From positions 41,398,501 through 41,462,500 of the forward strand of contig JAZHRO010000050.1 of NCBI GenBank assembly GCA_037157565.1: 64,000 bases of DNA, in the 5' to 3' direction. The notes under the pieces were generated by a model. It was not told where the DNA came from. It did no database searches and saw only the letters and a list, made by a program, of their open reading frames with translations. This DNA is from Thalassia testudinum (lineage: Eukaryota; Streptophyta; Magnoliopsida; Alismatales; Hydrocharitaceae). Positions 3,924-62,951 of the stretch are shown one piece after another. The translations under genes and the position numbers were made by a program. How positions within the stretch are numbered: the first letter of the stretch is position 1; every line of letters starts with the position of its first letter.

Positions 3924-3926
3924 AAA

Positions 3927-6007: not shown

Positions 6008-7422
6008 TGTTGGAATCAAGTTCCACTTCTCTTTTATGTTTTGGTGTTAACAAAATTATTTTAAATCTAATGAGTTTATAAAGTGTTATTTTCAAGAAAT
6101 CACAAGATTTAGGAAGTATGAAAGAGGTGATGATGGCATGAAGAATGAAGATTGATTTCATATTGTTCATATATCTTGTAATCTAGATTTTGTACGTCTC
6201 CTAACAAGAAAAATGATCTAGGAGTTAAAATCAAAATAGAAATAATTAGGAATCATACTCCAGTTCTATTATTCATTTGAAAAACTTATATCGTTTCTTT
6301 GTCAGATTTATCATATATTTACATTCAAATATCACCTAAATTGATGAACAAAACTTATTGAAGGTACTTGTTGCAAGTATCGGTACTATTCACCAATAAC
6401 GGTACCTGCTAAGCATAAGTTTGGGTCCTAGTCCCAAACTGTGAACAAGTACCCGTACTCATCATGAGTACCAGTACCAGGTGCTCACAGTCTGAAGACT
6501 TGGGAAGTGCCTGAACCTTACAAGTACCGGTACTAATCACCAGTACCGGTACATGTAGGTCATAGTTCATGCCATTACCCAAATATGTGAGTCACAAGTA
6601 CTGGTACTTATTATGAGTACCGGTACCAAGTGACTAAGTTGGTACTCAATTGTAAGCACTGAGTACTGATACCCATGACGAGTACCAGTACCCAGGCTTT
6701 GTTGGGCTGACTGCTGTTTAATTGTGAGCAATCAGTATCGGTACCACAACTTTAGTACTGGTACTAACTAACCATTGAGCCCAATCTAAATGTCTATTTT
6801 GCAATTAAACCTATCTCTAATCTTCCTATTTTGCCCCTAACGGCTAGTAATCATAGGGAAGGTGTTTAGTGGCTTACATAAACACCTTGTGTGTGTCATC
6901 TGCACACAACACAAGCATAAAAAATCTCCTTGGTCTCAATTCCATATTTCTCAATTAAAGCTGCAAGGATTGTCGTTTTGTTGCATTCTTCTTCAAGGCG
7001 ATACTCTTTGCAACAAATCATTTCAGGCGATTTCGTTCTTCATCGTAAAATCTCTTTTGCGCTTTAATGTGCTTTCGCTAGATTAGTATATAAACTTTCT
7101 ATTAAGAAAATTCTTGTTGGAGACTTAGGAACTTAGTTGTAAGCTATATTGTTGCTTACTTACACTTGTATCTTTCTATTCTTATTTAATCTTGTAATTG
7201 GGTTGAGGTAACCTGTTAATGACCTTTGTTTATAGTAAATTTATTCCCTCCGGGTTGAGGGAATCAGGTTAAAAATCCTAAGTCAAGAGACTTAGGTAGT
7301 GGAGTACCCAAGTGAGGGGAACCACTATACATTTGGTGTTATATTTTGTAGTTTGCTTTATTTTTTGTTTACCACACTATTCATCCACCCTTGCAGTGTG
7401 CTTGTGCCTTTTAGATCCTACA
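6008..7422 (+). repeat. K 3' LTR
   Basis: 1415-bp LTR running from TGTTGGAATC to cctaca. The order of parts matches the T LTRs: distal U3, then a palindrome array (6377-6764), then a probable core promoter near 6870-6890 (acataaacacc, weak TATA), then R-U5 containing a repeated 'gttgaggtaacc / gggttgaggg' region. No coding capacity. Confidence 0.75.
6377..6764 (+). promoter_or_regulatory. Paired GTACCGGTAC palindrome array in K U3
   Basis: Twelve copies of a 10-bp palindrome close to GTACCGGTAC, arranged as six doublets: starts at 6377/6396, 6449/6468, 6524/6543, 6598/6617, 6663/6682 and 6735/6755. Members of a doublet are 19-20 bp apart start to start, and successive doublets are 65-75 bp apart. 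The array lies upstream of the putative core promoter. Spacing near two helical turns suggests a cluster of protein sites on one DNA face. GTAC is the core bound by plant SBP-domain factors, but which protein binds here is unknown. Confidence 0.8.
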
Positions 7423-7672
7423 CGACAGTGGAATCAAGGTCCACCTTAGTCGTGAGCGCAGCGATTGTGGTGCTCCTTCTCCTAATGTGTGGCCTAATGG
7501 CAACGTCATGGGTTGCCTAATCTCTGAGGTTGGTACGACAAGATGTCTCTAAAGATGTGTACCTCCCACCAAAAGAAGATAAGAGTCAAATATGCCCCGA
7601 ATAAAATGTGAACAAATAAATGAATGAATGCGAGTTTAACATACCCGTTGCCTCCCCAGCAACAGCACCATT
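7423..7672 (-). other. Element G leader and tRNA-Asp primer binding site
   Basis: Minus-strand element of which only the first 230 bases of leader remain before K interrupts it. The PBS is 7654-7670, reading TGGTGCTGTTGCTGGGG on the minus strand, with three C-to-T mismatches to the tRNA-Asp complement. GTTGC (7647-7651) and GCAAC (7659-7663) can form a stem overlapping the PBS. The remainder of G must lie left of the window. Confidence 0.75.
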
Positions 7673-9058: not shown

Positions 9059-11784
9059 TGAAACGTCGGTTTGGATTTGATGACCGGGTTTTGGTTTTGT
9101 TATAACGTTGTAGTAAAGCCGGTTATTACCAACATTTCAAATATAAATTTTTTACTCGGAAAATAAAAGAGTTCCCGAGGTCGAACTCAGGGAGCAAGTC
9201 GTATTCTAGAGATATACATGTTTCTTTTACAAAATAAAGAAAGAGAGAGGGAAAGAATTTGTTGTTCTTTTCGTTTTCTCCTCGTGATGTTCTTCTTTCT
9301 TTCTTTTCTTCAGATCTCCTTCTTCTTCTTTGTTCTGCAGAGGTGACGCTCCTCTTCAGATCTCCTTCTTTTTCTTCCTTATGGCTGCAGAGCTTCTACC
9401 TTCAGCTACTAAGTCTTCCTTTCTTCTTCTTCTGCTTTGGCCGTTGCTCTTCTTTTCTTTCTTTCTTCAGCCTGCCTTCTTTCCTGCTCTGGCTGCTGAC
9501 CTTCCGTCGTCTGACCCGGTGCTTCGACGACTTAACTATGCATTTGCTACAGTGCAGCTCCTTCTTCTTCCGCGGGTCTTCTTCTTCGCCTGCGCCTGCA
9601 CACTTCAGAGTTTCTCGTCAGAAGCAAAACCTACTCTACCCTCCCCCCCCCGCGTCTCTCTTTCTCTCTGAAACCACTCTTGGGAAAGCTCTCCCAGAGC
9701 TACCGGGTAACCGGGTTCGGATCAGGCCCGGGTCCAGGCCCACCGGCGTGCGTGGTGGGCGAGGAGTGCAGGTCAGTCGAGTCGGGTCGGGTCGGTTCGG
9801 GTCAGGTCCGCGGGGCGTGAGCGCGGACGAGACCGGGTAACCGGGCGGGTGAAGGGGACCTCACCCCGTGTACTGAGGCAGTAAGGCTACTGCACTTTTG
9901 CATCTTATGTCGCTGCGGCTCTTCAGGCGTTTCCGAGGTGGGACTAAACGGCCCACCTCAATTGCGCGCCCGCAGCGGGGAATTCAGCAGGAGATGGCAG
10001 TGTCACGCGGAGTTTTCTTCCTCAGCTGCGAACCTGTTGTTTTGCCAAAACTCCTCGCAAGGCCTGGGAGTGAATCTGGGCTTGGCGCTGAGCGTGGCGC
10101 GCCTGTAGCTGCAGGCGGAAGTAGGTCCTCCTGCACGGCAATGGCGGCGGAGGTCGGGTGGCCTGTCCACAAGAAAACGGCCTTCTCGGCCTAATCAGAG
10201 AGTGCCAGGAGCTTCGCCAGGGTGCGGCGAAGCTCGTGTGGGTGGTGGCGAGGCGCGGGGCGGCGTGCGAGGGCTGCCCTAGGTCGGACTGTGGGTCGGA
10301 GGATGGGTCTGTTCGGTGGAGTTGCAGAGGGTGATGTGGGGGAAGTGGTAGGGCGGAGATTGATCAGGGTGAGGAGGCGGAGGTCCTGCGGTGGTTGGCG
10401 AGCCGTGTGGGTCGCTGAGGTGAAGGGAGCGGCTCGCCGGAGGATGGCCGGAGGCGGAGAAGGTGAGGGTGAACAGGAGCGGTCGAGGGTTTAATCAAAT
10501 AAAAGACAGTGAGGAAAAGAAAGAGGGGGAGATGGGGAGGAGTTCTGACCTAGCTATGGAGACGAAAGGGGCCGAGGCAGGGCGACAGTCGTATCGACTG
10601 TCGCCGGAGAAGAAGATGCCCAGGGGAAGGGGCGGCGGCGAGCAGAGGGCTGGAGAGGCGCCAGCTGGGTACGGCGTGGCGCAGGAAGACCAGGGGAGGA
10701 GGTCTCTGCTGCTGGTATTACGGCAGAGCGAAGAGGAGGAGGAGGAGGAACCGCCGGAGCTGGTGGGCGTCTGCTGGAGGGAGAGGAGAAGAAAGTTGGG
10801 GGTTTTCTCCGTCAGACCCGAGCTGCCCTGGTCGGTGGAGCAGCGGGGGGTATTTATAGGGGTGAAACAGGGAGGAAGGCGGAGGGAGACGACGTGTCTC
10901 CCTCGCCGGAGAATGGTCGGAAACACGAACCCATACCGTCCGTGCGTTCGCACGGCCGGTATGGTGGGCTACAATGACCAGGGGGTGCCCCTGCGACGGC
11001 TGACGACGCAGGGCACCCCCGGTTTACTTGCCAGGTCCCCCACCTCACCCTGCGCGGCGCCATGCTCCGCGCAAGGTCGCCGGAGCATGGTGCTGGCAGG
11101 GTTTTGCAGGAGGGACCTGATTGCAAAGAACGAAGGAGAGTTAGGGGCCAAAATGCGAGGGTTCAAAAGTTGAGGGCCAAAGAGTAAATATATGAGGACC
11201 AAAGTGTAAAGTCGGTCAAGGAGGTTTCTTCTTAGGCTCAAGTTTTTATACATGACTAATTAGGACCTAAGGAATCTGATGGTGAATTTCATTTTCATAT
11301 TAAACCTTGTTTGACCGGTCAATTTGCGCAAAAACCCAAATCAAGTTATTAATTGGGCGTGGTTCTCAATGTAGGTCAAAATGGGTTCTAAAGGCCAAAT
11401 TGAAGGTTCTAAACCCTAGAGATTATTTTTCTATGAATTTTAGAGGGTTTATTCTATTTTTACTTTGCCTCGAACCTCGTGAATTGAAGTCGGTTGTTTT
11501 TAGGGTTACAGATTATCATTTAGTTTCTTGGAAGTGCTGTAGCCCTTGCTAGATCATCTCATCCCACTTTTATTCTTATTAAGCTGCTTTGACCTATGTT
11601 TGGGCCCTGAATTGCCCTGTATGCAGATTATACTGGTAAAATTGCATTTTTACCCCTTATGACTTGTTTTCTTCTCAAACTCAGAATTCTCTGAGTTAAG
11701 CCTTTCCTTGAGGTATGTAGGAGCTTTTATCCTTTGTATTAGGTCAAAATGAGCTAGTTATGGCTCATGATGAGGTTCTCATCA
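9059..11784 (-). repeat. B 3' LTR (left copy)
   Basis: Begins TGAAACGTCGG and ends TTCTCATCA on the plus strand. The minus-strand TATA box at 10851-10859 divides it into U3 (to 11784) and a long R-U5 (about 1.77 kb, 9059-10830). About 9700-11150 is strongly GC-rich; the ends are AT-rich. Long plus-strand frames here (9259-9840, 10463-11173) are antisense to the element and low in complexity, and I do not call them genes. Confidence 0.93.
10851..11090 (-). promoter_or_regulatory. B LTR core promoter with three U3 hairpins
   Basis: TATA box CTATAAATA (minus strand, 10851-10859). Upstream in U3 come three inverted repeats: 10931-10964 (16-bp arms CCATACCGTCCGTGCG and partner, one mismatch, 2-nt loop), 10981-11020 (GGGGGTGCCC arms, one bulge) and 11060-11090 (perfect 10-bp arms CCATGCTCCG / CGGAGCATGG). 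The same set is present in the right LTR, with the first hairpin at 18161-18194 and TATA at 18081-18089. They could be dimer binding sites or form cruciforms; neither is shown. Confidence 0.75.
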
Positions 11785-13049: not shown

Positions 13050-13090
13050 CATACCCCCCCATGCCTAAGATTTGCAATGTCCTCATTGTA
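13050..13090 (-). other. B internal polypurine-like motif
   Basis: On the minus strand it reads CAATGAGGACATTGCAAA followed by TTAGGCATGGGGGGGTATG. It lies 230 bp after the ORF stop and about 1.27 kb before the terminal tract. It is the best preserved of six copies in this window. Confidence 0.7.
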
Positions 13091-13318: not shown

Positions 13319-15172
13319 TCAGCCAAGCGGGAAATGCGATGGAGAGGGGATGGTCAAATCAGCAGAGTTTTGTAAGACAAGCACCTTGATTAAGAGCCTG
13401 GTTGGTCCAACCAGGTGCTTGTTCAGATCAACAGGCTGATGATGCAGCCCAAACCCAATCAATCTGGTGGGTTGATAGATGTGGATAAAAAGGTGTGGAA
13501 CCCACCATAAACTGTGAAGCTCAGATAGATGTGGAAGTGTAAACGCAGGGTTTGGCTGAGTCGAATCAGCCTGGTCAGAGTAGGGACCTGTAGAATAGTC
13601 AATGAATGACGCGGAAACCCTACGGGGGTGATCAGAGAATGATAGAGCATGGTATGTAGTCTGATCAATGTTCGAAACCCGATGTGGAAATGCAATCGGC
13701 TCGGTGAGAGGTGAATCTGAATAGAAATTGAGTCTGGTTGCGGGTCGGGGTTTGGGAGAGGTTTTGATCCGTTCTGTGTGTGCGGACAAGGTGGCCATTG
13801 TATACAAGGGCTCTTCTAGAAACAGATGATAGGTGGTTTTCTGTAGAGAGTCCTCTGGGTAACTATCAAATGCCGGAAGAGTGTCTGTAGGATGAAAGGA
13901 ATCGGATTCGAGAAAAAATTTGGATTCTTGGTTGTAATCACTCTTGGCATTTTCTATTTTTGGTTCCTGAGGATCGAAAAGGAGTGATTCTGTGTTATTA
14001 GTGATCTCGGGAATCAGGACCTCAAAGTCAGAGTCAGAGTCATGTGAACTGAGGTCGTAGATAGGCCTGGCGTGTTCAGGAAGGGGAATCTCTCCGCAAT
14101 TATAGTCAGATCTGAAATTGTCGGAGAGTTGGCGAAAATGATCATGAATTCCACCACAGCACAAATCATCAGATGTGGAATCAGCAGCCTGACTGGGTTC
14201 TAGCCTATATGTCACTTCTGGGCTCAAAAAGATGTTCTGTTCAAGCTCTAAGCTGGTAGGATAGACCCCATTAAAACCTTGCTCATCCAACTCCTCAGTT
14301 TCTGTATCATAAATTGGCATGTTTTCTGAAAAATCAATCAGATTTCCTGAGGATGTTGGAAAAGGACATTCATCAAATAAAGGCCCGGAATCATATTCTG
14401 TAAAAATTTGATCTTTCTCATAAGGGGCCTCATAATCTTCCCAATAAGTTTCAGATCTAGGTTCTAGGCTTAGGATGTGGGTAGAATTATTAGAACCTAA
14501 GTCCGAATAACCTTCGAGGGTTACCTTATCAAAACAAGGGGCGGAATTTATACCCTCCAGAGGTTCAATTCTAATCTTGTTATTGCAGGAGTCTTGGAGT
14601 TCTAAGCTTGGTGATTTATGGCCTAGGGTTGGCTCAGCATTGTGTTCTCCTGCAACTTCCCAACCTATTTTAATGCTATCTTCTATTTGGGTTGGGAGTC
14701 GACAACCACCTTGTGCCTCAATCCCGAGGTCTGGGAAACTGGATTGATTCTTAGTACTGTTCCAAGATGACTCATCCTTTGTTTCTGGTATATACGGGTA
14801 TTTCTGGTTGATAATTTGTTCTACTGATTTCATCATTTCTACCCGTTTCATAAGGGCATCTTGGTGTTGTTCCCAAAGTACAGGATTTGTCAAGCATTGA
14901 AGGTATTCAGATTGGTGTAATTTTTCCATCTCAATGTATCCTGTCATGAGCATATCTCGGGTTGATCCTTTTATGGCTCCTGTCAATAGAGTTTGGGCAC
15001 AGTTTATGATGAAGGCTGTGGTTGTTGGGACATCAACCTGAATATCTCCTATTGGTGTTGAGGTTTTTTCTTCTTTTTCATAGAATTTTATGGCATCCTC
15101 GATCATTTTATCTTTCATAGATCTCCGATATTCAGGTTTCTTGAATGGTAGTCTTAGGTGGTTTGGCTGCAT
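13319..15172 (-). CDS. B orphan ORF, 617 aa, unknown function
   Basis: Single uninterrupted frame on the element strand. I start at the first ATG (15172); the frame is open 8 further codons to a TTG and is closed upstream by a TGA. I recognise no gag, protease, RT, RNase H, integrase or zinc-knuckle motif. The N-terminal 140 residues look helical (MEKLHQSEYLQ, INQKYPYIPE). The middle, about 150-430, is rich in Asp, Glu, Ser and Pro (e.g. DSDSDFEV). The C-terminal block, about 548-605, is hydrophobic and is the best-conserved part (WWVPHLFIHI, IGFGLHHQP, VGPTRLLIK). Related frames occur in F, A, C and D. The TGA stop lies in a noncoding motif (TTGGCTGAAGGCAT, then AAATTTAGCGC) shared by all these elements. 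Position after the leader, with no gag before it, argues against a normal gag. An env-like or accessory protein is a guess only. Protein-level conservation with F suggests real coding. Confidence 0.65.
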   Translation of the reverse strand: MQPNHLRLPFKKPEYRRSMKDKMIEDAIKFYEKEEKTSTPIGDIQVDVPTTTAFIINCAQTLLTGAIKGSTRDMLMTGYIEMEKLHQSEYLQCLTNPVLWEQHQDALMKRVEMMKSVEQIINQKYPYIPETKDESSWNSTKNQSSFPDLGIEAQGGCRLPTQIEDSIKIGWEVAGEHNAEPTLGHKSPSLELQDSCNNKIRIEPLEGINSAPCFDKVTLEGYSDLGSNNSTHILSLEPRSETYWEDYEAPYEKDQIFTEYDSGPLFDECPFPTSSGNLIDFSENMPIYDTETEELDEQGFNGVYPTSLELEQNIFLSPEVTYRLEPSQAADSTSDDLCCGGIHDHFRQLSDNFRSDYNCGEIPLPEHARPIYDLSSHDSDSDFEVLIPEITNNTESLLFDPQEPKIENAKSDYNQESKFFLESDSFHPTDTLPAFDSYPEDSLQKTTYHLFLEEPLYTMATLSAHTERIKTSPKPRPATRLNFYSDSPLTEPIAFPHRVSNIDQTTYHALSFSDHPRRVSASFIDYSTGPYSDQADSTQPNPAFTLPHLSELHSLWWVPHLFIHIYQPTRLIGFGLHHQPVDLNKHLVGPTRLLIKVLVLQNSADLTIPSPSHFPLG

Positions 15173-16286: not shown

Positions 16287-16289
16287 AAA

Positions 16290-19015: not shown

Positions 19016-19020
19016 AGGAG

Positions 19021-21216: not shown

Positions 21217-21660
21217 TCGTCTCTTGTGCCTTGAGACATTGTGGACATATTCAAGTATCATGCTACTTGGCTACTCTAGATATTTGGCTAATTGGTTTGA
21301 GACACTGTTGGAAAATTTGATTTGGCTTGAAACATGGGATATGTGCTTAATCAATGGTGATTTAAATCACCATTTTTAGAGTTTTTTCTATTCTTTTTTT
21401 CCCATTATTTTTTGAGATACCATTGCTATCATTAAATATATTTTTGAGTATATTTTTATTCATTGAATATCTTTCTTATCCATAATCATTGTGTTCATTA
21501 TCTGTAATTGCGATTTGTGTGTGAATTCCGTATTTGCTCCCTGTGAACGACCTTGGACTCATTTCTACTTACGAGTACTTATAAATTTTAAATGCTGTGT
21601 CAATTTTCGTCACTATACTACGACATATCATTTCTTAAACACGACGATTTTCGAGTAAGA
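21217..21660 (+). repeat. F 5' LTR remnant (end of U5)
   Basis: Matches 50200-50645 of the F 3' LTR (shared words tctcttgtgccttgagacat and ttggctactctagatattt) and ends cgagtaaga against cgaataaca in the other copy, so the terminal CA has mutated to GA. The first 2.1 kb of the LTR is missing or replaced by J. Confidence 0.8.
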
Positions 21661-21663
21661 TTT

Positions 21664-22759: not shown

Positions 22760-23193
22760 TGATTGCGCAGCAATCATAGGTCTTAATTGACCTAGATTAA
22801 GTTAGAAATAAGCATAAGTTAGGGAAATTTATGCACGCATAAGCATTATCTGCTCTTTCCTGCTTTACTTTAGCTATGCATAAAATGATGTTATAATGTG
22901 CTAATTAAGTGCATTATGTCGATTGCAGGAATAAGCTGATCGGGAGTTGGATCAGGAATAACGGGAGTTGCAGCAGAGCTGGAGTAGAAGGCTTAGATTA
23001 GATGTAGGACTAATAATGTAAGGGAGTTAAATGTTTGCTATGCTATTAAGTAGGAATAAAGTAGTAAAATGTGAAGAGCTTAGGTCCATCCTAGCCCTAG
23101 GGTAGCCTAGAGACTTCCCCAAGCCTTAGCCACCCTTAGATTAGGTCACAACACCCTAGGAAGCCCTAAAACCCTAGTTCCAACCATTATCTG

Positions 23194-23422
23194 GATGTCT
23201 AGATAAGTTATAGGACATCCATGACCCTTAGCCATCTCCCACACACCTCAAACCCACCTCTGCAGTGTTATTGGACATCCAGACACTTTGTCAGACATCC
23301 AATTTCTGCAGAATACCCAAAACAGAACCCAAAATCCCTCCTGACGCTGATTGGACGTCCAGACAACAAGTTTGGACTTCTGATTTTTAAGTGTAAGACG
23401 TCTGACACTATTATTAGACGTC
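23194..23422 (+). promoter_or_regulatory. Paired GACGTC-type array in D 5' LTR U3
   Basis: Eight hexamers of the type GACGTC/GATGTC/GACATC/GACTTC in four doublets: 23194/23214, 23274/23294, 23354/23375 and 23397/23417. Members of a doublet are 20-21 bp apart; the first three doublets repeat every 80 bp. Local contexts (TTGGACGTCCAGA, AGACGTCTGATA) are palindromic over 8 bp. GACGTC is the C-box bound by plant bZIP factors; actual binding is not shown. The array lies about 660 bp upstream of the TATA box. Confidence 0.8.
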
Positions 23423-24036
23423 TGATACTGCTCTCCAATTCCTATTTTGAGATTTAAACCTTGATCTTGGATCTCTAGGTCCCTAAACCCAATTCCAACC
23501 CCATAGGAACCTAAATTAAGGTGCCCTAACCCTAGTACATCACCTCTAGACCTCTCTAAGGACCTAATTAGGTCCTCACTAAACCTAATTGACTTTGATA
23601 TTAGTCAATTCCATCAGCACACACTGTCCAATTGGACTCAGTGAGAGTCCAATTGACCTAGACCTAAATTAATTGAGTTGTTTTACTCTGAATTAAGTTT
23701 CCACACACCCAATTAAACTTGTATTAAGTTTAATTGCACTTTACCTTAGCGAATTAGGGTTTATAGCCCTAATTGGAGACATACCTTGACCTAAACCCAC
23801 TAGAACCTAACCTAATCAACTTAGCCACCTAAGTTTCAACCCACACACACCCACACACACCATCCACTTGAAAATACCTAGCCTAGAGTTCTCTAGAACT
23901 CTCTACCATGTGTGGCTGCCTTAGTTGCCAAAATTAGCAACCAAGAGCCATTCAATTTTTAGATCCACATTTGGTGGATTTGAAAGCCACCATCCATATT
24001 CTCTCGCTCACACTCCCACATGCTCCCACCATAGTC

Positions 24037-24099
24037 CTCTCTAGAGAATTCCATAATTCTCTAGAGAGCTACCCTTAGGTCTATAAAAAGACCTAAGGG
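24037..24099 (+). promoter_or_regulatory. D core promoter: two perfect hairpins, TATA box in one loop
   Basis: 24037-24068 is a perfect 14-bp inverted repeat (CTCTCTAGAGAATT, 4-nt loop). Three bases on, 24072-24099 is a perfect 10-bp inverted repeat (CCCTTAGGTC / GACCTAAGGG) whose 8-nt centre is TATAAAAA. The second structure is intact in the right LTR (31543-31570); the first is partly mutated there. Further inverted repeats lie upstream (gttgc near 23927, atccac/gtggat near 23962). Confidence 0.8.
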
Positions 24100-24904
24100 G
24101 TGGCCATGTGCACCCATTCCAATCCCTTGGCTTCATTGGCACCACTCACCTCATTAGCTTCATACACGCGCACCTTCACTTAGGTTAGCTACTCCACCTC
24201 CACGAGCTCACCACCATCATGGAGTACATCATGCCAGGATGCTGGATCGCTCCTCCCTCTCTCCAAGGGTCGGCCTAAGCTACATTGGTCGCCCCTCATT
24301 CTCCTCCCGACCACTCCAAGGCCATTGGGGACCACCCCTGAATGCCCTCTATTCTTCTATATTTAATTCATGCACTTCATAATTTTATTGCTTTTATTAC
24401 TTTTTAATAGCTTAGTCTTACTTCTCCCCCAATGATGCATGCAAAATCCCCCTATAGATTCTTGTATGCAATCGTTTTCTGGTAGCTAGATTTTCAATTT
24501 TAAGGATTCATGTACAAGCTTTCTTCTACCTTCTATGTTGCAAACACTCTCTTGAGTGAATAGAAGATATATTTTTATGTATATGTATATGAGTTGGGAA
24601 TCACCATGAGCTTATTGCAATATCTTTTTGAGTGATTAATGTTGCCTATTTTTAATTCCTAATATACTTGCAACTAAGCATGTCGTACTTCAATGCGTAA
24701 TAATCATAAACCGGCGTGTGATTTTAAACGAAGTAGAGTGGTAAAAAGATCGATTTCAAAAGTAAATCAAATGCCTCCCAGAGATGAATGACCGGGACTC
24801 AAGTGTCGTAATCTTTACAAACTTAATTTTTGACAAACGTTTTTGCCCAACTATACTACGATTTCCGACGACTTTCAAAATGCGTGAAAATGCTCCCCGT
24901 CAAA

Positions 24905-30184: not shown

Positions 30185-32372
30185 TGATTGCGCAGCAATC
30201 ACAGGTCTTAATTAACCTAGATTAAGCTAGAACTTAGCATAAGTTAGGGAAATTTATGCATGCATAAGCATTATCTGCATCTTTACTGCTTTACTTTAGC
30301 TATGAATAAAATGATGTTATAATGTGCTAATTAAGTACATTACGTCGATTGCAAGAATAAGCTGATCAGGAACTGGATCAGGAATAACGGGAGTTGCAGC
30401 AAAGCTGGAGCAGAAGGCTTAGATTAGATGTAGGAATAATAATGTAAGGGAGTTAAAGGTTTGCTATGCTATTAAGTAGGAATAAAGTAGTAAAATGTGA
30501 AGAGCTTAGGTCCATCCTAGCCCTAGGAAAGCCTAAAGACTTCCCCAAGCCTTAGCCACCCTTAGATTAGGTCACAACACCCTAGGAAGCCCTAAAACCC
30601 TAGTTCCAACCCATATCCGGATGTCCAGATAAGTTATAAGATGTCCAGGACCCTTAGCCATCTCCCGCACACCTCAAACCCACTTCTGCAGTGTTATTGG
30701 ACGTCCAGACACTTTGTCAGACGTCCAATTTCTGCAGAATACCCAAAACAGAACCCAAAATCACTCCTGACTCTGATTGGACGTCCAGAAAACAAGTCTG
30801 GACTTCTGATTTTCGAGTATAAAATGTCTGACACTATTATTACACGTCTGATACTGCTCTCCAATTCCTGTTTTGAGATTCAAGCCTTGATCTTGGATCT
30901 CTAGGTCCCTAAACCCAATTCCAACCCCATAGGAACCTAAATTATGGTGCCCTAACCCTATTACATCACCTCTAGACCTCCCTAAGGACCTAATTAGGTC
31001 CTCACTAAACTTAATTGACTTGGATCTTAGTCAATTCCATCAGCCTATTCAATTGGACTCATTGAGTCCAATTGAGCCCTGATCTCAGCACACACTGTCC
31101 AACTGGACTCAGTGAGAGTCCAATTGACCTAGACCTAAATTAATTGAGTTGTTTTACTCTGAATTAAGTTTCCACGCACCCAATTAATCTTGTATTAAGT
31201 TTAATTGCACTTTACCTTAGAGAATTATGGTTTATAACCCTAATTGGAGACATACCTTGACCTAAACCCACTAGAACCTAACCTAATCAACCTAGCCACC
31301 TAAGTTTTGACCCACACATACCCACACACACCATACACATGAAAATAACAAGCCTAGAGTTCTCTAGAACTCTCTACCATGTCTGGTTGCCTTAGTTGCC
31401 AAAATTAGCAACCAAAAGCCATTCAATTTTTAGATCCACATTTGGTGGATCTAAAAGCCACCATCCATCTTCTCTCGCTCACTCTCCCACGAGCTCCCAC
31501 CATAGGCCTCTCTACAAAATTCCATAATTCTCTAGAGAGCTACCCTTAGGTCTATAAAAAGACCTAAGGGGTGGCCATTTGCAACCATTCACATCCCTTG
31601 GCTTCATTGGCACCACTCACCTCATTAGCTCCATACACGCCCACCTTCACTTAGGTTAGCTACTCCACATCCATGAGCTCACCACCATCATGGAGGACAT
31701 CATGTCGGGATGCTGGATCACTCCTCCCTCTCTCCAAGGGTCCGCCTAAGCTACATTGGCCGCCCCTCATTCTCCTCCCGACCACTCCAAGACCATTGGG
31801 GACCACCCCTGAGTGCCCTCTATTCTTCTAGGTTTAATTCATGCTCTTCATAATTTTATTGATTTTATTACTACTTAATAGCATAGTCTTACTTCTCCCC
31901 TAATGATGCATGCAAAATTCCCCCATAGATTCTTGTATGCGATGATTTTTTGGTAGCTAGATTTACATTTTTAAGCATTCATGTACAAGATTTCTTCTAC
32001 CTTTTATGTTGTAGACACTCTCTTGAATGAATAGAAGATATATTTTTATATATATGTCTATGTGTTGAGAATCATCATGGGCTTATTGCAATATCTTTTG
32101 AGTAATTAATGTTGCCTGTTTTTAATTCCTGATATACTTACAACTAGGCATATTGTACTTCAATACGTAATAATCATAAACCGGTGTGTGATTTTAAGCA
32201 AAGTAGAGTGGCAAAAAGATCGATTTCAAAAGTAAATCAAATGCCTCCCAGAGACGAATGACCGGGACTCAAGTCTCTTAATCTTTACAAACTTAATTTT
32301 TGATGAATGTTTTTGCGCGACTATACTACAATTTCCGACGACTTTCAAAACACATCAAAATGGTTCCCGTCA
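30185..32372 (+). repeat. D 3' LTR
   Basis: 2,188-bp partner of the LTR at 22760. The GACGTC-type doublets recur at 30620/30640, 30700/30720, 30780/30801 and 30823/30843, so the spacing is preserved although several hexamers differ from the left copy. TATA lies at 31553-31561 inside its 10-bp inverted repeat. It ends CCCGTCA next to resumed F sequence. Confidence 0.9.
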
Positions 32373-43518: not shown

Positions 43519-43521
43519 ATT

Positions 43522-52050: not shown

Positions 52051-52099
52051 AGTGGTTGGCTACAACATTTTTGGATCTAACCTTGTCTTGTACTTCCAG

Positions 52100-53602: not shown

Positions 53603-55301
53603 TGTTGGTGCTAGAGCACCACGATCGTTTGTTTTGATGATAACAAAACACGTGCCATTTAACATTTGCACTTGGAGTCTTAGATTTCAGGTCAATTGCA
53701 AATGAAGACGTGATTAGACAGAGTTCGAGCTTGTATCCAGGATGGATTGGAGGAGCTTGATAGAGAACAAAGGAGATTCGCAATGAGTGATAGATTGAAG
53801 ATGGAAGGACAAGAAGAATATGATAGAATTCTATTTATTTCTTTCATGTACCTTTATCTTTATTTCCTTGCTCTTTTTTTGTTCCTTAGAACATCATGTT
53901 AAAGGACCTCAAAGTACCCTAACAGTAGTCCTACGAACAACGGCACAACACTAGGATACTTAGATTTTCTGTAGACAACTTAGAAAACCAATATAGGGTT
54001 CAAACAGCCTTTTCAGACGTCTAATTCCAAAAACAGACATCTGATAATGGGTTTTAAGACGTCTGACTGTTGATTCAGACGTCTGATAACAATTAGGCTA
54101 GACTTAGCTAGTTCTGTCTGATGAAATCTGATGTCCATACCTTAGTCCAGATGTCTGATGATTTTGCCAGACATCCAATTAGTGGACCGTTGGCTGGCTT
54201 AACAAACACTGAAGGATATGACCATTAGAGCCTTATCAGACATCCTTAAGCCTTTCCAGACGTTTGATAAATGACCGTTTTACCTCGGTTGACCCTAAAA
54301 TCTCTTCTCAAAGATTTTCTAGCCATTGCACTCTCTTGAAAATCCATTCCCGCAGAAAAGTAGGTTTCCAGATGTCTAGACATAGTTCCAGACATCCTGT
54401 ATGTCACCTGATGGACTTGCACTAGAACCCTGTTTAGATCTTATTCAAGTCAGGAAGAAACCCGCCTAAAATCAGACGTTTGACTTTGATCCCAGACGTC
54501 TTAAACTGATCTTCTAGACGTTTGATGCCGGGATCAGACGTCTGATAACCCTGTCAGTGCAATCATTGTTCCTGATTTCGGCCTAATTCTCTTAGGCTTT
54601 GCACCCAACAGCTATGGAAGCTTTCCAAAGCCTTCCAAAGCCTTCCTAAGGCCTCTATAAATAGAGGGGAGCCTTTGCCACTCAAGATACACCTAGACAC
54701 ACCCAAGCAACATACTTTCCACTCTTTTGTGTCTAAGAAAGGCTCTTTCTCTCCAAGCTCAAGTTCTTCATCTTGAGAGCATCAAGCCTTTCGCACCCGC
54801 TCTCCCGCCACAGTTCACGAGAGCGATGTTGTGCCGTCGTGTAGCCCACACACCCGCATCATCGATTCGACACACTTCCATCAAAGGGGAGTTTCCTAAT
54901 TCCTATAGAAGCTAGGTTTAAATCTTTGTTGGCTCTATAGGACTATATCTGTTATTTAACTTTGTTATTTAGTTGGGTATTCACTTTGCTAATTCCCATT
55001 TCCATCGTAGGACAAAATCCTTCTCGTAAAGAGAAGGGGTTTGAGGTGTGCTACACTCGTACAAAGTAGCATGGTTGTAATTGAGGTTGAATCACCCTCG
55101 TTTAAGTGATTCGTTTAATGGATTTGATCAACTTGGTTGATCGGAAAATCCTAACTCGAGAGGGTTAGGTGGTGGTTTTCACCCGGTTTGGGTTTCCACC
55201 TAAAAATAATTGTGTGCTTTGTGTGATTGAATTTTGTGAGATTGTTTCATATTATATTTCCATAATTTTTTATGTCACCCCCTCCTAGTAGGGAAACTAC
55301 A
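53603..55301 (+). repeat. T LTR 1
   Basis: TGTTGGTGCTAG to gaaactaca, 1,699 bp. U3 carries the GACGTC array (54016-54542), followed by a short tandem ctttccaaagcc repeat and the TATA box TATAAATA (54656-54663), which sits in the palindrome CCTCTATAAATAGAGG (54652-54667). It is followed by the tRNA-Met PBS (tgatatcagagcagg, from 55304). Confidence 0.93.
54016..54542 (+). promoter_or_regulatory. GACGTC doublet array in T LTR 1 U3
   Basis: At least a dozen hexamers of GACGTC, GATGTC or GACATC type, mostly in AGACGTCTGA context, starting at 54016. The doublet layout is the same as in LTR 3, where I measured it. The last is at 54537-54542, about 115 bp before the TATA box. GACGTC is the plant bZIP C-box; actual binding is not shown. 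Confidence 0.8.
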
Positions 55302-55354
55302 ACTGATATCAGAGCAGGTTCTTGCTATTCGGAGTAACACCCAGCAAGAAGATC

Positions 55355-56959
55355 ATGGAGGGGAGAAGTTCCGCGAGTAGGATTTCTGAGGGCCAGTCTA
55401 TGACTCATCCGCCGTTCTTCGACGGGAGCAACTAACCCTACTGGAAGCTGCGGATGAAGACGTGGCTTCAAGCCACCGAATTCACGATTTGGGCCAGGTG
55501 CGAGACCTCCTTCGACATCCCAGAAAAATCGACTGCAGGATACTCGCAGCAGCAGATCTGGGAACTCTCGCTCAACGCGAAAACAATGAACGCGTTGTAT
55601 TGTGCACTCAGCCCGAAGGAGTTCAACAGAATCACGCAATGCGCCACCGCATACGAGATTTGGCACACACTTGAGGTAACTCACGAAGGTACCTCCAAGG
55701 TAAAGACTTCCAAAATCAATTTACTTTCTCAAGAATTTGAATCTTTTTCTATGAAACCTAATGAAACTTTAAGTGAGATGAACACTAGGTTCACTCTCAT
55801 TGTAAATAATTTAAAAGCTTTAGGGAAGACTTTCATCAAGGGGGAGCTTCAAGGGAAGCTTCTTCGTTTCCTCGGACCGGAGTGGGAACAAAAAGTCACC
55901 GCCATCAAGGAGGCGAACAAAGTGGAGGATCTCAACATGGAAGATCTCCTAGGCAATCTAATGGCCTACGAGACTAAGTTGAAGTAGAAGAAGAAGGATA
56001 CACCGGAGCCTAAACTGAACAAGACTCTCACCTTCAGAGCCACGTCGGATAGCGAGGTATGTTCCGACGACGAAGACTTTAAAATTTTACTTAAGAAATT
56101 TTCCAAGTTTTGTAGGGAATCAAAGAAAGGGAAAAAAGAGAAGGAGAGCCCAAGACGTTGCTACCACTGCAACGAGAAAGGGCATCTGCGACCAGAATGC
56201 CCTCTTCTCAAAAAGGAGAAGAAGGAAAAGGAGAAGAAATCTAAGAAAAAGGCATTCAAAGACACTTGGGACGATTCGAGCTCGGAGGAAGAAGAAGAAA
56301 AGTCTATAGAAGAAGAAACCGCTTGCTTTGGTTTTGTGGCCAGAGGAAGTGATGGCGACAGCGAAAGCGGAAGCGACTCTGACAACGAGGTAAATTTCGA
56401 TTTACAAGAAGCTTTTAATGAACTATTTGATGTTAGTAAATCATTAAGAATAGAAAACAAAAGCATTAAAAAGAACCTTAGCTTTCTTAAATCTGAAAAT
56501 GATAGGTTAGAAATAAAACTTAAGGACCTAGAAAGTAGCTCTAGTCCTAAGGATAATAACCTGTTATTAGAAAATAAAGACTTAATCAATGAAAATACTA
56601 AATTAATTAAGGAAAATGCTAGTCTAAAATTAGAAATTTCTTATTTAAAGACTAAGATACATATTATAGAAAAAGAAATCGCATGTCTTAGGGAAAACTC
56701 TAACATATTAATCAACAAAGTAGATAATTTTTATAGCCCTAAGATTGAGAAAGGATCTCCGTCAAGGAGACCTGCTAACAGATCCGGATCCAAGCTCACT
56801 TGGATACCGAAGAAAGAATTGGAATCTTATTTTGTAGGTTTCAGGGATAAATACAACATGAAGGACTGGACCTACAAGCTCAAGGCTGGTCAACTCGAGT
56901 TGGGAGAACCAAGAGTAGATCAAGGAGGAGAACAAGAAGACCGAAGAGACGGCAAATAA
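55355..56959 (+). pseudogene. T gag copy 1 (copia-type, inactivated)
   Basis: One frame from ATG 55355, broken by a TAA at 55433 and a TAG at 55985, with a 1-nt deletion near 56910 that replaces the C-terminus. Domains: N-terminal copia gag region (SRISEGQS, YWKLRMKTWLQA), UBN2-type gag core (about 55490-55985; AYEIWHTLEVTHEGTSKVK, FIKGELQGKLL), Lys-rich linker, a CCHC zinc knuckle CYHCNEKGHLRPEC (56159-56200), an acidic Ser/Glu stretch, then a long Leu/Asn/Lys coiled coil (about 56430-56720). This is the SIRE/Maximus gag layout. It would form the particle and package RNA. No pol follows. Confidence 0.88.
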
Positions 56960-57139
56960 ACGATAGACCCGCCGCACGTCGACCGCCAGACTAGAGACCG
57001 ACGTCGATTCTCGGGACTCCAAGCCACGGATGGGAGCCCCATCCAATGTGGCATCCACCACCACTATTTAGGCCATTTTATTGGCCATGGTAGTTGAGGT
57101 AAAAATTCTTTACCCTATCTTTTTATCATAAGCATTTAG

Positions 57140-57419
57140 ATAGGGGGAGTTAAAAAATTATTAGCTAATTGTCAATTTTTAAGGGGAAGATGTAAGTTAG
57201 CTAAATTTCCTTTAGTAAGGGGGAGAAGAAAAATAGCTATCTTGTTGTTACAAAAAGGGGGAGGATATTACTTTTGTTAAAAGAAATTCATAGAAGAGCA
57301 TGTTTTAAGGGGGAGTTATAGGAAATTTAAAATCAATCAAACCTTTTTGATAATGTCAACAAGGGGGAGGATTTTTTTTGCATTATTTATGATTTTTTCA
57401 TCATCAAAAAGGGGGAGAT
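57140..57419 (+). other. Polypurine ladder before T LTR 2
   Basis: Seven purine tracts of AAGGGGGAG type at about 57146, 57180, 57218, 57254, 57308, 57360 and 57407, separated by 30-50 nt of T-rich DNA. Only the last (aaaaagggggagat) abuts the LTR and is the functional polypurine tract by position. Confidence 0.75.
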
Positions 57420-59120
57420 TGTTGGTGCTAGAGCACTACGATCGTTTGTTTTGATGATAACAAAACACATGACATTTAACATTTGCACTTGGAGTCTTAG
57501 ATTTCAGGTCAATTGCAAATGAAGACGTGATTAGACGGAGTTCGAGCTCGCATCCAGGATGGATTGGAGGAGCTTGATAGAGAACAGAGGAGATTCGCGA
57601 GGAGTGATAGATTGAAGATTGAAGGACAAGAAGAATAAGATAGAATTCTGTTTATTTCTTTCATGTACTTTTGTCTTTATTTCCTTGCACTTTTTTGTTC
57701 CTTAGAACATCATGTTAAGGAGCCTCAAAGTACCCTAACAGTAGTCCTAAGAACACCGGCACAACCTTAGGGTACTTTGGTCTTTTGTAGAGAACTTAGA
57801 AAACCAATATAGGGTTCAAACAGCCTTTTCAGATGTCTAATTCCAAAAATAGACGTCTGCTAATGGGTTTTAAGACGTCTGACTGTTGATTCAGACATCT
57901 GATAACAATTAGGCTGGACTTAGCTTGTTCTGTATGATGAACTCAGATGTCCAGACCTTAGTCCAGATGTCTTAGAAGTCATCTGATGATTTTGCCAGAC
58001 GTCCAATTAGTGGACCGTTGGCTGACTTAACAAACACTGAAGGATATGATCGTTAGAGCCTTATCAGACGTCCTTAAGCCTTTCTAGACGTCTGATAAAT
58101 GGCCGTTTTACCTCAGCTGACCCCAAAATCTCTTCTCAGAGATTTTCTAGCTGTTGCACTCTCTTGGAAATCCATTCTCGCAGAAAAGTAGGTTTCCAAA
58201 CGTCCATACATAGTTCCAGATGTCACATATGTCGTCTGATGGACTTGCACTAGAACCCTGTTTAGATCTTATCCAAGTCAGGAAGAAACCCGCCTAAAAT
58301 CAGACGTCTGACTTTGATCCCAGACGTCTTAAACTGATCTTCCAGACGTCTGATGCCAGGATTAGACGTCTGATAACCCTGTCAGTGCAATCATTGTTCC
58401 TGATTTCGGCCTGATTCTCTTGGGCTTTGCACCCATTGGCTATGGAAGCTTTCCAAAGCCTTCCTAAGGCCTCTATAAATAGAGGGGAGCCTTTGCCACT
58501 CAAGATACACCTAGACACACCCAAGAAACATACTTTCTACTCTTTTGTGTCCAAGAAAAGCTCTTGCTCTCCAAGCTCAAGTACTTCATCTTGAGAGCAT
58601 CAAGCCTTTGCGCACCCGCTCTCCCGCCGTAGTTCACTAGAGTGACGTTGCATCGTTGTGTAGCCCACACACCCACGTCATCGATTCGACGCACTTCCTT
58701 CAAAGGGGAGTTTCCTAATTCCTATATAAGCTAGGTTTAAATCTTTGTTGGCTCTATAGGACTATATCTGTTATTTAACTTTGTTATTTGGTTGGGTATT
58801 CGCTTTGCGAGTTCCCATCTCCTTCGTGGGTCAAAATCCTTCTCGTGAAGAGAAGGGGTTTGAGCTACGTTAAACTCGTATAAAGTAGCGTAGTTGTAAT
58901 TGAGGTTGAATCACCCTTTTTTAAGTGATTCGTTTAGTGGATTTGATCAACTTGGTTGATCGGAAAATCCTAACTAGAGAGGGTTAGGTGGTAGTTTTCA
59001 CCCTATTTGGGTTTTCACCTAAAAATAATTGTGTACTTTGTGTGATTGAATTTTGTGAGATTGTTTCATATTACATTTCTGCAATTTATTACCTCACCGC
59101 CTCTTAGTGGGGAAACTACA
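57420..59120 (+). repeat. T LTR 2 (shared middle LTR)
   Basis: 1,701 bp. It serves as 3' LTR of unit 1 and 5' LTR of unit 2. TATAAATA at 58474-58481. It is followed by a PBS (tggtatcagcgtagg, from 59123) with changes from the usual tggtatcagagc. No target duplication flanks it. Confidence 0.92.
57832..58370 (+). promoter_or_regulatory. GACGTC doublet array in T LTR 2 U3
   Basis: Same array as in LTR 1 and LTR 3, from gatgtc 57832 to gacgtc 58365-58370. It includes a shorter triple near 57965-57985, where one member differs from LTR 3. Many hexamers keep the full GACGTC. Confidence 0.8.
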
Positions 59121-59173
59121 ATTGGTATCAGCGTAGGTTCTTGCTATTCGGAGTAACACCCAACAAGAAGATC

Positions 59174-60917
59174 ATGGAGGTGAGCAGTTCCGCGAGTAGG
59201 ATTTCTGAGGGCCAGTCTACGACTCATCCGTCGTTCTTCGACGGGAGCAACTACCCCTACTGGAAGCTGCGGATGAAGACGTGGCTTCAAGCCACCGACT
59301 TCATGATTTGGGCCAAGTGCGAGACCCCCTTCGACATCCCTGAAAAACCCACTGCAGGATACTCGAAGAAGCAGATCTGGGAACTCTCACTCAACGCGAA
59401 AACAATGAATGTGTTGTATTGTGCACTCTGCCTGGAGGAGTTCAATAAAATCTCGCAATGCACCACCGCATACGAGATTTGGCACACACTTGAGGTAACT
59501 CACAAAGGTACCTCCAAGGTAAAGACTTCCAAAATCAATTTACTTTCTCAAGAATTTGAATCTTTTTCTATGAAACCTAACGAATCTTTAAGTGAGATGA
59601 ACACTTGGTTCACTCTCATTGTAAATAATTTAAAAGCTTTAGGGAAGACTTTCATCAAGGGGGAGCTTCAAGGGAAGCTTCTTCGTTCCCTCGGACCGGA
59701 GTGGGAATAGAAAGTCACCGCCATCGAGGAGGCAAATGAAGTGGAGGATCTCAACATGGAAGATCTCCTAGGCAATCTAATGGCCTACGAGACTAAGTTG
59801 AAACAGAAGAAGAAGGATACACCGGAGCCTAAACAGAAGAAGACTCTCGACTTCAGAGCCGCGTCGGATAGCGAGGTAAGTTCCAACGACGAAGACTTTA
59901 AAATTTTACTTAAGAAATTTTCCAAGTTTTATAGGGAATCAAAGAGAGAAAAAAGAGAAGGAGAGCCCGAGATGTTGCTACCACTGCAACGAGAAAGGGC
60001 ATCTGCGACCAGAATGCCCTCTTCTCAAAAAGGGGAAGAAGAAGGAAAAGGAGAAGAAATCTAGGAAGAAGGCGTTCCAAGCCACTTGGGATGATTCGAG
60101 CTCGGAGGAAGAAGAAGAAGAAAAGTCTATAGAAGAAGAAATCGCTTGCTTTGGTTTCATGGCCAGAGGAAGTGATGGCGACAGCGAAAGCGGAAGCGAC
60201 TCTGACAACGAAGTAAATTTCGATTTACAAGAAGCTTTTAAAGAACTATTTGATGTTAGCAAATCATTAAGAATAGAAAACAAAAGCATTAAAAAGAACC
60301 TTAGCTTTCTTAAATCTAAAAATGATAGGTTAGAAATAAAACTTAGGGACCTGGAAAGTAGCTCTAGTCCTAAGGATAATAACCTGTTATTAGAAAATAA
60401 AGACTTAATCAATAAAAATACTAAATTGATTGAGGAAAATGCTAGTCTAAAATTAGAAATTTCTGATTTAAAGACTAAGATACATATTATAGAAAAAGAA
60501 ATCGCAAGTCTTAGGGAAAATTCTAACAAATTAATCAACAAAGTAGATAATTTTTATAGCCATAAGATTGGGAAAGGATCTCCGTCAAGGAGACCTACTA
60601 ATAGATCCGGATCCAAGCTCACTTGGATACCGAAGAAAGAATTAGAATCTTATTTTGTAGGTTTCAGGGATAACTACAACACGAAGGATTGGACCTACAA
60701 GCTCAAGGCTGGTCAACTCGAGTTGGGAGAACCAAAGAGTAGATCAAGGAGAAGAACAAGAAGACCAACGAGACGGCGAACAAACGATGGACCCACTGTA
60801 CGTCGACCGCTAGACTGGAGACCGACGCCGATGCCCAGGCCTCCAAGCCACGGATGGGAGCCCCATCCGATGTGGCATCCACCACCACCATTTGGGCCAT
60901 TTTATTGGCCATGGTAG
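59174..60917 (+). pseudogene. T gag copy 2 (copia-type, inactivated differently)
   Basis: Starts at ATG 59174 (MEVSSSASRIS). A TAG at 59708-59710 and a 2-nt deletion near 59946-59960 break it; the zinc knuckle, acidic stretch and coiled coil continue in another frame to 60917. Unlike copy 1, the early YWKLRMK region is intact, and the C-terminus is complete: basic Arg-rich stretch (RSRRRTRRPTRRR), then Pro/Trp-rich tail (PPPFGPFYWPW). Together the two copies show the ancestral gag was about 570-580 codons with no pol. The lesions differ between copies, so both units decayed independently after duplication. Confidence 0.88.
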
Positions 60918-61243
60918 GTGAGGTAAAAATTCTTTACCCTATCTTTTTATCATAAGCATTTAGATAGGGGGAGTTAAAAAATTGTTAGCTAATTATCAAT
61001 TTTTAAGGGGAAGATGTAAGTTAGCTAAATTTCTTTTAGTAAGGGGGAGAAGAAAAACAGCTATCTTGTTGTTACAAAAAGTGGGAGGATATTACTTTTG
61101 TTAAAAGAAATTCATAGAAGAGCATGTTTTAAAGGGGAGTTATAGGAAATTTAAAATCACTCAAACCTTTTTAATAATGTCAAAAAGGGGGAGGATTTTT
61201 TTTGCATTATTTATGGTTTTGTCATCATCAAAAAGGGGGAGAT
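60918..61243 (+). other. Polypurine ladder before T LTR 3
   Basis: Second copy of the ladder: purine tracts near 60966, 61008, 61039, 61076 (aaaaagtgggagg, mutated), 61130, 61183 and 61230, the last abutting the LTR. Number and order match the first ladder. Confidence 0.75.
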
Positions 61244-62951
61244 TGTTGGTGTTAGAGCACTATGATCATTTGTTTTGATGATAACAAAACACGTGTCATC
61301 TAACATTTGCACTTGGAGTCTTAGATTTCAGGTCAATTGCAAATGAAGATGTAATTAGACGGAGTTCGAGCTCGCATTTAGGATGGATTGGAGGAGCCTG
61401 ATAGAGAATAGAGGAGATTCGCGAGGACCGATAGATTGAAGATGGAAGGACAAGAAGAATAAGATAGAATTCTGTTCATTTCTTTCATGTACTTTTGACT
61501 TTATTTCCTTGCTCTTTTTTTGTTCCTTAGAACATCATGTTAAAGAGCCTCAAAGTACCCTAACAGTAGTCCTAGGAACACCGGCACAACCCTAGGATAC
61601 CTAGGTTTTCTGTAGAGAACTTAGAAAACCATTATAGGGCTCAAATAGCCTTTTCAGACGTCTAATTCCAAAAACAGACGTCTGATAATGGGTTTTAAGA
61701 TGTCTGACTATTGATTCAGACGTCTGATAACAATTAGGATGGACTTAGCTAGTTCTGTCTGATGAAATCAGACGTCCATACCTTAGTCAGACGTCTTAGA
61801 AGACGTCTGATGATTTTGCCAGAAGTCCAGTTAGTGGACCGTTGGCTGGCTTAACAAACACTGAAGGATATGACCATTAGAGCCTTATCAGACATCCTTA
61901 AGCCTTTCCAGATGTCTGATAAATGACTGTTTTACCTCGGCTGACCCCAAAATCTCTTCTCAAAGATTTTCTAGCCGTTGCACTCTCTTGGAAATCCATT
62001 CCCGCAGAAAAGTAGGTTTCCAGATGTCCAGACATAGTTCCAGATGTCCTGTATGTCGTCTGATGGACATACACTAGAACCCTGTTTAGATCTTATTCAA
62101 GTCAGGAAGAAACCCACCTAAAATTAGACGTCTGACTTTGATCCCAAACATCTTAAACTGATCTTCCAGACATCTGATGTCAGGATCAAACGTCTGATAA
62201 CCCTGTCAGTGCAATCATTGTTCCTAATTTCGGCCTGATTCTCTTGGGCTTTGCACCCAATGGCTATGGAAGCTTTCCAAAGCCTTCCAAAGCCTTCCTA
62301 AGGCCTCTATAAATAGAGGGGAGCCTTTGCCACTCAAGATACACCTAGACACACACAAGCAACATACTTTCTACTCTTTTGTGTCCAAGAAAAGCTCTTG
62401 CTCTCTAAGCTCAAGTTCATCTTGAGAGCATCAAGCCTTTGCGCACCTGCTCTCCCACCATTGTTCACAAGAGCGACGTTGCGCCGTCATGTAGCCCACA
62501 CACCCGCGTCATCGATTCGACGCACTTCCATCAAAGCGGAGTTTCCTAATTCCTACAGAAGCTTGGTTTAAATCTTTGTTGGCTCTATAGGACTATATCT
62601 GTTATTTAACTTTGTTATTTGGTTGGGTATTCGCTTTGCGAATTCCCGTCTCCTTCGTGGGACAAAATCCTTCTCATGAAGAGAAGGGGTTTGAGGTACA
62701 ATACACTCGTACAAAGTAGCGTGGTTGTAATTGATGTTGAATCACCCTCATTTAAGTGATTCGTTTAGTGGATTTGATCAACTTGGTTGATCAAAAAATC
62801 CTAACTCGAGATGGTTAGGTGGTGGTTTTCACTCGGTTTGGGTTTTCGCCTAAAAATAATTGTGTACTTTGTGTGATTGAATTTTATGAGATTGTTTCAT
62901 ATTATATTTCCGCAATTTTTTGCGTCACCCCCTCCTAGTAGGGAATCTACA
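61244..62951 (+). repeat. T LTR 3
   Basis: 1,708 bp, TGTTGGTGTTAG to gaatctaca. TATAAATA at 62308-62315 in the palindrome CCTCTATAAATAGAGG. It is directly followed by the AGGTG duplication and then H sequence. It differs from LTRs 1 and 2 by several percent by eye. Confidence 0.92.
61657..62194 (+). promoter_or_regulatory. GACGTC doublet array in T LTR 3 U3
   Basis: Hexamers (GACGTC, GATGTC, GACATC, AACATC, AACGTC) start at 61657/61677, 61699/61719, 61771/61790 (plus 61802), 61891/61911, 62023/62043, 62127/62147 and 62169/62189. Within-doublet spacing is 20 bp in six doublets and 19 in one. The same spacing is seen in the D LTRs. Confidence 0.85.

Follow-up and report, generated by a model that had tools for sequence, protein, structure and literature searches.

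Paired palindromes at a near-constant distance of 19-20 bp in long terminal repeats of copia and gypsy elements of Thalassia testudinum

Introduction

Why should long terminal repeats (LTRs) of different retrotransposon families carry short palindromes two by two, at an almost constant distance from each other? The question is raised by a 64,000-nucleotide stretch of Thalassia testudinum DNA (assembly GCA_037157565.1, contig JAZHRO010000050.1, positions 41,398,501 to 41,462,500), referred to here as the window. The initial annotation described a common layout in the U3 regions of LTR families K, T and D, in which two palindromes lie 19-21 bp apart and such doublets are repeated upstream of the TATA box. 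It took the families to be unrelated, and suggested recruitment of dimeric activators or escape from silencing. We show that the doublets recur throughout the genome with a sharply defined spacing, and that the same palindrome and spacing are found in Ty1/copia and Ty3/gypsy elements. Letters K, T, D and A follow the earlier labels, matched by content, and E and S are added here; the LTR pairs of A, D, E and S and the LTRs of T were found by self-comparison of the window. The distance between the first bases of the two sites of a doublet is called the lag.

Palindrome doublets in the LTRs of the window

K is a 3' LTR of a Sirevirus-like Ty1/copia element (6008..7375, with an approximate 3' end) that starts with TGTTGG; like all K, D and T features below it lies on the + strand. 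Sites were scored as AGTACCGGTACT-like in K and CAGACGTCTG-like in T, with up to 3 mismatches. The U3 of K contains 12 such sites and its U5 none, and they form an array of six doublets at 6376..6765 (first bases 6376/6395, 6448/6467, 6523/6542, 6597/6616, 6662/6681 and 6734/6754) with lags of 19, 19, 19, 19, 19 and 20. The three T LTRs, T1 (53603..55302), T2 (57420..59121) and T3 (61244..62952), have 14, 19 and 19 sites in U3 vs 0, 0 and 1 in U5. These are arranged as seven doublets in T1 (54014..54544) and eight each in T2 (57830-58372) and T3 (61655-62196), and every lag is 20 except for a single 19 in T3; quartets spaced 20-22-20 are present at either end of the T arrays. TATA boxes lie downstream of the T arrays at 54656, 58474 and 62308, and K has just CATAAAC at 6877.

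The D element has a 5' LTR (D5, 22760..24902) and a 3' LTR (D3, 30185..32372) that match at 92-93% over two blocks. Under the CAGACGTCTG criterion D is weak, with 7 vs 3 and 8 vs 2 sites in U3 vs U5, its sites being for the most part TGGACGTCCA-like. Scored with both words, D5 has four GACGTC-type doublets at 23192..23424 (23192/23212, 23272/23292, 23352/23373 and 23395/23415, with lags of 20, 20, 21 and 20), and decayed counterparts are present in D3 (30618/30638, 30698/30718, 30778/30799 and 30821/30841). The places of these doublets are identical in D5, D3 and two D-like copies elsewhere in the genome (in loci L016 and L001), each of the latter having one partner site beyond the threshold. 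A promoter-proximal TCTCTAGAGA doublet (24038..24067, sites at 24038 and 24058, lag 20) ends 14 bp before the D TATA box at 24082. The TATA box itself is contained within an inverted repeat, CCTTAGGTC ... GACCTAAGG (24073-24098), directly downstream of this doublet.

When palindrome pairs at lag 19-21 are counted regardless of motif, few dinucleotide shuffles of the U3 regions reach the observed number (0/300 for K, 5/300 for T1, 11/300 for T2, 2/300 for T3 and 9/300 for D5), although D3 by itself fails, with 173/300; in six U5s 90 to 300 of 300 shuffles do so. Pairs of the same palindromic word at these lags are more restricted. The window has 14, located in the U3s of K (4), T1 (3), T2 (3), T3 (2) and D5 (2), with none in D3, the tested U5s, the LTRs of A, E and S, or the rest of the window. 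LTR A has 5 motif-blind pairs at lag 19-21, a number equalled in 8/200 shuffles, and no same-word pair at these lags. The palindrome doublets of the window LTRs are thus confirmed as real, and the layout proposed for the U3s of K, T and D is borne out by their lags. The enrichment over U5 and shuffles, a test set beforehand, also holds in the window LTRs, D3 alone excepted.

Spacing in random DNA and across the genome

Same-word pairs were also counted in a random sample (20 stretches of 10 kb, from 22 of 237 contigs). At lags of 10-80 there are 104, with 10 at lag 19 and 13 at lag 20; ten shuffled sets of the same stretches have 7-15 each, and 0-1 at lag 19-20. The words found at lag 19-20 are GTACCGGTAC, AGACGTCTG, TGGACGTCCA, TCTCTAGAGA, CCTAGG-centred words and one TTCGAA-centred word. 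When any two palindromes may form a pair, no excess at lag 19-21 is seen in these stretches because chance palindromes swamp the signal, which needs similar words; the enrichment expected from the initial annotation therefore extends to random DNA for similar-word pairs and is lost for arbitrary ones. Six control palindromes, counted in the window plus the 20 random stretches, yield 0-8 pairs within 70 bp and 0 at lag 19 or 20.

Exact doublets were counted per strand over the 4.26-Gb genome, with a reversed-pattern control. There are 79,796 CAGACGTCTG doublets with a gap of 4-34 (control 2), 7,179 of GTACCGGTAC (control 8) and 13,105 of TCTCTAGAGA (control 1). Among the 100 CAGACGTCTG matches listed the lag is 20 in 29, 32 in 32 and 42 in 33, and in those with lags of 32 or 42 there is mostly a third site in between, 20 from one end; among the 50 GTACCGGTAC matches listed it is 19 in 35/50 and 20 in 8/50. 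The sharpness of the spacing is clearest for exact AGACGTCT pairs, which number 825 at lag 19, 212,299 at lag 20 and 896 at lag 21 (controls 3, 6 and 3), such that lag 20 outnumbers lags 21 and 19 by 237 and 257 times.

Copy number inflates every one of these genome-wide counts, and distinct contexts therefore matter more. We took 20 stretches (L021-L040) from 100 CAGACGTCTG doublet rows and 20 (L041-L060) from 50 GTACCGGTAC places; inclusion required one or more exact pairs at gap 4-34, and further pairs inside are unselected. Distinct doublets are those left after collapsing similar flanks. GACGTC nearest-neighbour doublets include 145 pairs at lag 20, of which 57 are distinct, with 2 distinct doublets at lag 19 and 0 at lag 21. 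A second GACGTC lag of 12 is represented by 31 pairs in 11 distinct contexts, with 0 at lags 10, 11 and 13-16. For GTACCGGTAC there are 40 distinct doublets at lag 19, 11 at lag 20, 0 at lag 18 and 2 at lag 21. Nearest-neighbour site distances across L021-L040 are 20 in 115/257 and 12 in 28/257, and runs of five GACGTC sites at 20-bp steps occur. Distances between doublets vary, and the lag within them hardly changes.

Element lineages that carry the doublets

Both K and T resemble Sireviruses. The polypurine tract (PPT) octamer AGGGGGAG starts 10 bp before the 3' LTR at 5998 (K), 57410 (T2) and 61234 (T3), and the linkers upstream of these LTRs contain 3 (at 5845, 5896 and 5998), 6 and 4 octamers, respectively; an octamer in this position with further copies upstream is a Sirevirus likeness (PMC2829016). 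A Met-tRNA primer-binding site (PBS), TATCAGAGC, is present at T1 (55307), with a variant at 59126 in T2; the 5' LTR of K falls outside the window. Three T frames were scanned, giving a copia gag (PF14223, in 55436-55987), a zinc knuckle and no match; two K frames gave no Pfam match. T is arranged as LTR-internal-LTR-internal-LTR at 53603-62952 with internal regions of ~2.1 kb; it seems to be a tandem Sirevirus that is short and non-autonomous. L014 contains a comparably short element of K type (2036-6493).

Six D frames in the window have no Pfam match. About 2.1 kb upstream of a D-like LTR elsewhere (L016:7244-9489), its strand encodes RVT_1, RNase H and rve integrase frames, and taking these to belong to the same element as the LTR, we infer that D is of Ty3/gypsy type. 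The PBS region of D presumably resembles a tRNA-Asp site. A zf-RVT match in L001 was not used for assigning the D lineage.

A third lineage, X, was recognized by array pattern and cross-matches in L021-L023, L026-L031, L033-L035, L037 and L040; L027 and L037 were placed by array pattern alone, and L032 and L038 are unassigned. Coding evidence comes from three loci, with a Tf2-1-like SH3 and chromodomain in L022, an SH3 in L031 and a weak SH3 in L035, and the L022 frame matches plant gypsy proteins among the named matches (best 120 of 7,776). Judging by these frames X, the main other source of GACGTC arrays, is a Ty3/gypsy chromovirus. The pol frame of X ends no more than ~120 bp from the start of the first array. 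CCTAGG-centred arrays with lags of 19 are found at L010:9419-9544 and L017:4789-4870, in loci that have X-like sequence as well.

By blastn the X loci have no match of at least 60 bp to the T, K or D LTRs, and self-comparison of the window reveals no match of at least 80 bp between D and T. The lag-20 GACGTC doublet is thus common to T (a Ty1/copia Sirevirus), X (a gypsy chromovirus) and D (a second gypsy lineage). The description of the doublet-bearing families as unrelated is apt for T, X and D, and does not extend to K and T, both of which are Sirevirus-like.

Spacers, helical period and site decay

The mean identity of GACGTC spacers is 0.305 over 58 distinct doublets, compared to 0.251 by chance, and their outermost positions lean to G/C. 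That spacers are nearly unrelated in sequence while fixed in length suggests that selection acts on how far apart two bound objects lie. The remaining distances in GACGTC arrays, with sums of the main lags excluded and each distance weighted by its occurrence, favour a 10-bp period (R 0.47; 1/4000 jittered sets as high). Site centres decay mainly from CG to TG or CA, the change to be expected if copies are methylated once inserted. Conservation polarity of isolated doublets was not used, there being 24 doublets and only 9 distinct ones.

Interpretation of the doublet arrays

On balance it is probable that the arrays are clustered sites for host dimeric DNA-binding proteins, with two dimers per doublet in a fixed geometry. 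The two dimers would sit about two helical turns apart and hold each other, forming a dimer of dimers that a cofactor might bridge, and within the LTR the arrays would work as the enhancer. That Ty1/copia and two Ty3/gypsy lineages have one palindrome and one lag in common suggests a shared host factor and not a family-specific element protein. Dimeric-factor recruitment, as first suggested, is thus the best fit among the explanations considered, in our reading of the sequences. For the GACGTC class the binder could be a plant basic leucine zipper (bZIP) protein that accepts C-box sites, such as a TGA-like factor, which is a guess. A bZIP pair is the leading candidate because TGA-type bZIPs bind the C-box and work on palindromes at set distances, and the main GACGTC centre distances are 20 and 12 bp, the latter equal to the as-1 spacing. 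The GTACCGGTAC class with its lag of 19 would be read by a different dimeric factor with the same architecture. A broader scenario, possible rather than probable, is that copia and at least two gypsy lineages converged on 20-bp (or 19-bp) palindrome pairs that are read by one host four-subunit complex in more than 200,000 copies.

Several observations weigh against recognition by paired dimers. The spacers of K resemble one another (identity 0.564, pattern T.AT.AT.A), and so inheritance could account in part for the lag in this family. Giving every lag value a single count removes the significance of the 10-bp period (363/4000 sets as high; 3973/4000 for GTAC). One lag-21 subfamily exists, in which one spacer recurs among the matches listed. 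The GACGTC sites are flanked by CA and TG, which we take to differ from the TGACGTCA of classical TGA sites. Finally, the second X array seemingly follows a TATA-like box, which does not suit an enhancer acting simply from upstream, and restriction of the arrays to U3 may therefore not hold in X.

A different role could be played by RNA or single-stranded DNA, in which the two sites of a doublet pair as a hairpin that acts as a small-RNA template or RNA signal. Since the same palindrome stands at both sites they can pair, with a stem of ~10 bp and a loop of ~10 nt, and Bousios reportedly gave a hairpin reading of maize Sirevirus palindromes in 2016. For palindrome-rich regions of Sirevirus LTRs, strong secondary structure has been predicted and hotspots of small RNAs have been reported (PMC5311732, PMC10760457). 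The second spacer position pairs in 0.53 of 40 distinct K doublets, vs 0.28 expected; two X spacer positions are also above expectation (0.62 vs 0.38 and 0.50 vs 0.29, with few collapsed spacers), and 58/106 double deviations restore pairing in 181 GACGTC doublets, uncorrected for relatedness. Yet in 58 distinct GACGTC doublets the arms pair overall no better than those of unrelated doublets, and pairing of collapsed GACGTC spacers is slightly raised beside the arms (0.59 vs 0.48) and at the next position (0.34 vs 0.27) and then not at all; in a smaller comparison, of just 8 and 6 collapsed spacers, the majority of positions agree with expectation. Where both centres have changed, pairing-compatible cases stand at 3 vs 6 for GACGTC and 5 vs 5 for GTAC. 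On the T sense strand C>T changes, which keep G-U pairs, number 27 vs 47 for G>A, the wrong direction for a hairpin, and in X they are 6 vs 5. A hairpin also leaves unexplained the drop in number one base off lag 20, the lag of 12 and the five-site runs at 20-bp steps. We therefore consider hairpins an unlikely general explanation; the inner pairing in K keeps them in play for that family, and protein and hairpin roles could coexist.

The constancy of the lag might also be a by-product of local duplication, in which a doublet-bearing unit is copied and its lag inherited without selection. K doublets do recur every 65-75 bp with similar spacers, the TCTCTAGAGA doublets among the matches listed all have a lag of 20 and a handful of similar spacers, as if they formed a single family, and the inflation of the genome-wide counts by copy number is in keeping with such copying. 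The 57 distinct GACGTC doublets, however, share a lag of 20 in LTRs without detectable homology and with spacers near chance identity, and it is the between-doublet distances that vary and hardly ever the lag within, making duplication distinctly unlikely as the source of the rule. An element-encoded anti-silencing or activator protein like VANC, with a motif co-evolving in each family, was the parallel drawn in the initial annotation. The K motif does differ from that of T, X and D, and each is found in dense non-coding arrays, as are VANC targets (PMC5735166). The parallel is nevertheless a poor fit, one motif and lag being common to copia and two gypsy lineages. The T internal regions of ~2.1 kb encode, in the three frames scanned, a gag and a zinc knuckle and otherwise nothing; no candidate protein was found, and we regard this explanation as very unlikely. 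Least probable in our estimation, and very unlikely, is a role of the palindromes as CG/CHG targets, in which DNA methylation is what the arrays promote or undergo and no activator is involved. Decay of the centres mainly to TG or CA would agree with it, as would the CpG islands formed by Sirevirus boxes (PMC2829016), but TCTCTAGAGA and CCTAGG doublets lack CG and still have lags of 20 and 19, and methylation predicts no fixed lag.

Other features of the window

The A LTR pair (9059-11784 and 16290-19015) encloses a 628-residue open frame (13322-15205, - strand) with no Pfam match. LTR A has adjacent palindromes, TTGACCGGTCAA and TTTGCGCAAA, at 11311-11332; the first is also present in the other A LTR at 18542 and, we presume, resembles an inverted pair of W-box sites. 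The E LTR pair is at 33467-35074 and 43521-45132, and the S pair at 21212-21658 and 50198-50643. A perfect 22-bp palindrome, AATGGTGATTTAAATCACCATT, lies within the first S copy (21353-21374), with a 14-bp form in its partner (50342-50355) and a recurrence of the 14-bp core at 36012. A perfect 24-bp palindrome, AATCCCACCAAATTTGGTGGGATT, is located at 48793-48816. Between elements there is a gypsy integrase-like fragment (50925-51446, - strand) and a reverse transcriptase-like fragment (52880-53284, - strand).

Relation to known systems and significance

Palindromic Sirevirus repeats upstream of the TATA box are already known. These repeated-motif (RM) boxes occur in at least 8 copies upstream of the LTR TATA, and were called Sirevirus-specific (Bousios et al. 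2010, PMC2829016). The arrays described here resemble them in having 12 (K) or 14-19 (T) palindromic sites in U3, upstream of the TATA box in T, and the published Usier box GTCGGACGTCCGAC has the core GGACGTCC in common with D (PMC2829016). They differ in that the cores are GACGTC and ACCGGT and not CGG...CCG as such, and in that GACGTC doublets are also found in the Ty3/gypsy elements X and D and are not restricted to Sireviruses. The T and D sites would appear to differ from the CGGACGTCCG core solely by C/T or G/A at CG positions. In the literature searched, including the available parts of PMC2829016, we found no doublets and no fixed 19-20 bp spacing rule, and none of the matches listed for the exact motifs has a title that concerns plant retrotransposons. 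As far as the literature was searched, what appears to be new is the rule of spacing, how sharp it is and its extension to Ty3/gypsy elements.

Other systems offer partial likenesses. The U3 of the copia element Tnt1 contains repeated, partly palindromic activator boxes, BI and BII, and is similar in this respect; the symmetry of Tnt1 box I is mentioned in PMC2829016. TGA bZIPs bind the C-box GACGTC and the spacing of their sites matters (PMC9360754), and as-1 has centres 12 bp apart (PMC3354754, citing Krawczyk 2002). Two palindromes at a set centre distance, occupied by two dimers in as-1, and acceptance of GACGTC by TGA factors are the likenesses; the differences are the main lag of 20 (145 pairs, 57 distinct) vs 12 in as-1, and the CA/TG flanks. 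The VANC21 arrays of VANDAL transposons are likewise dense short motifs in non-coding transposon DNA, but these have a single orientation, a family-specific motif and an element-encoded protein as reader (PMC5735166).

What the palindromic boxes of Sireviruses do was not settled in 2010, and the doublets provide a testable clue to how such elements are switched on or silenced. A rigid 19-20 bp rule common to copia and gypsy elements predicts that spacing, and not sequence alone, sets activity. If one host factor does read more than 200,000 doublets, transposons would be both a large sink and a dispersal route for its sites. If elements are instead silenced by way of their doublets, this geometry would be the code by which they are recognized. 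Should the reader be a single host complex, much of the mobile genome of T. testudinum would be under host regulation through one geometric signal.

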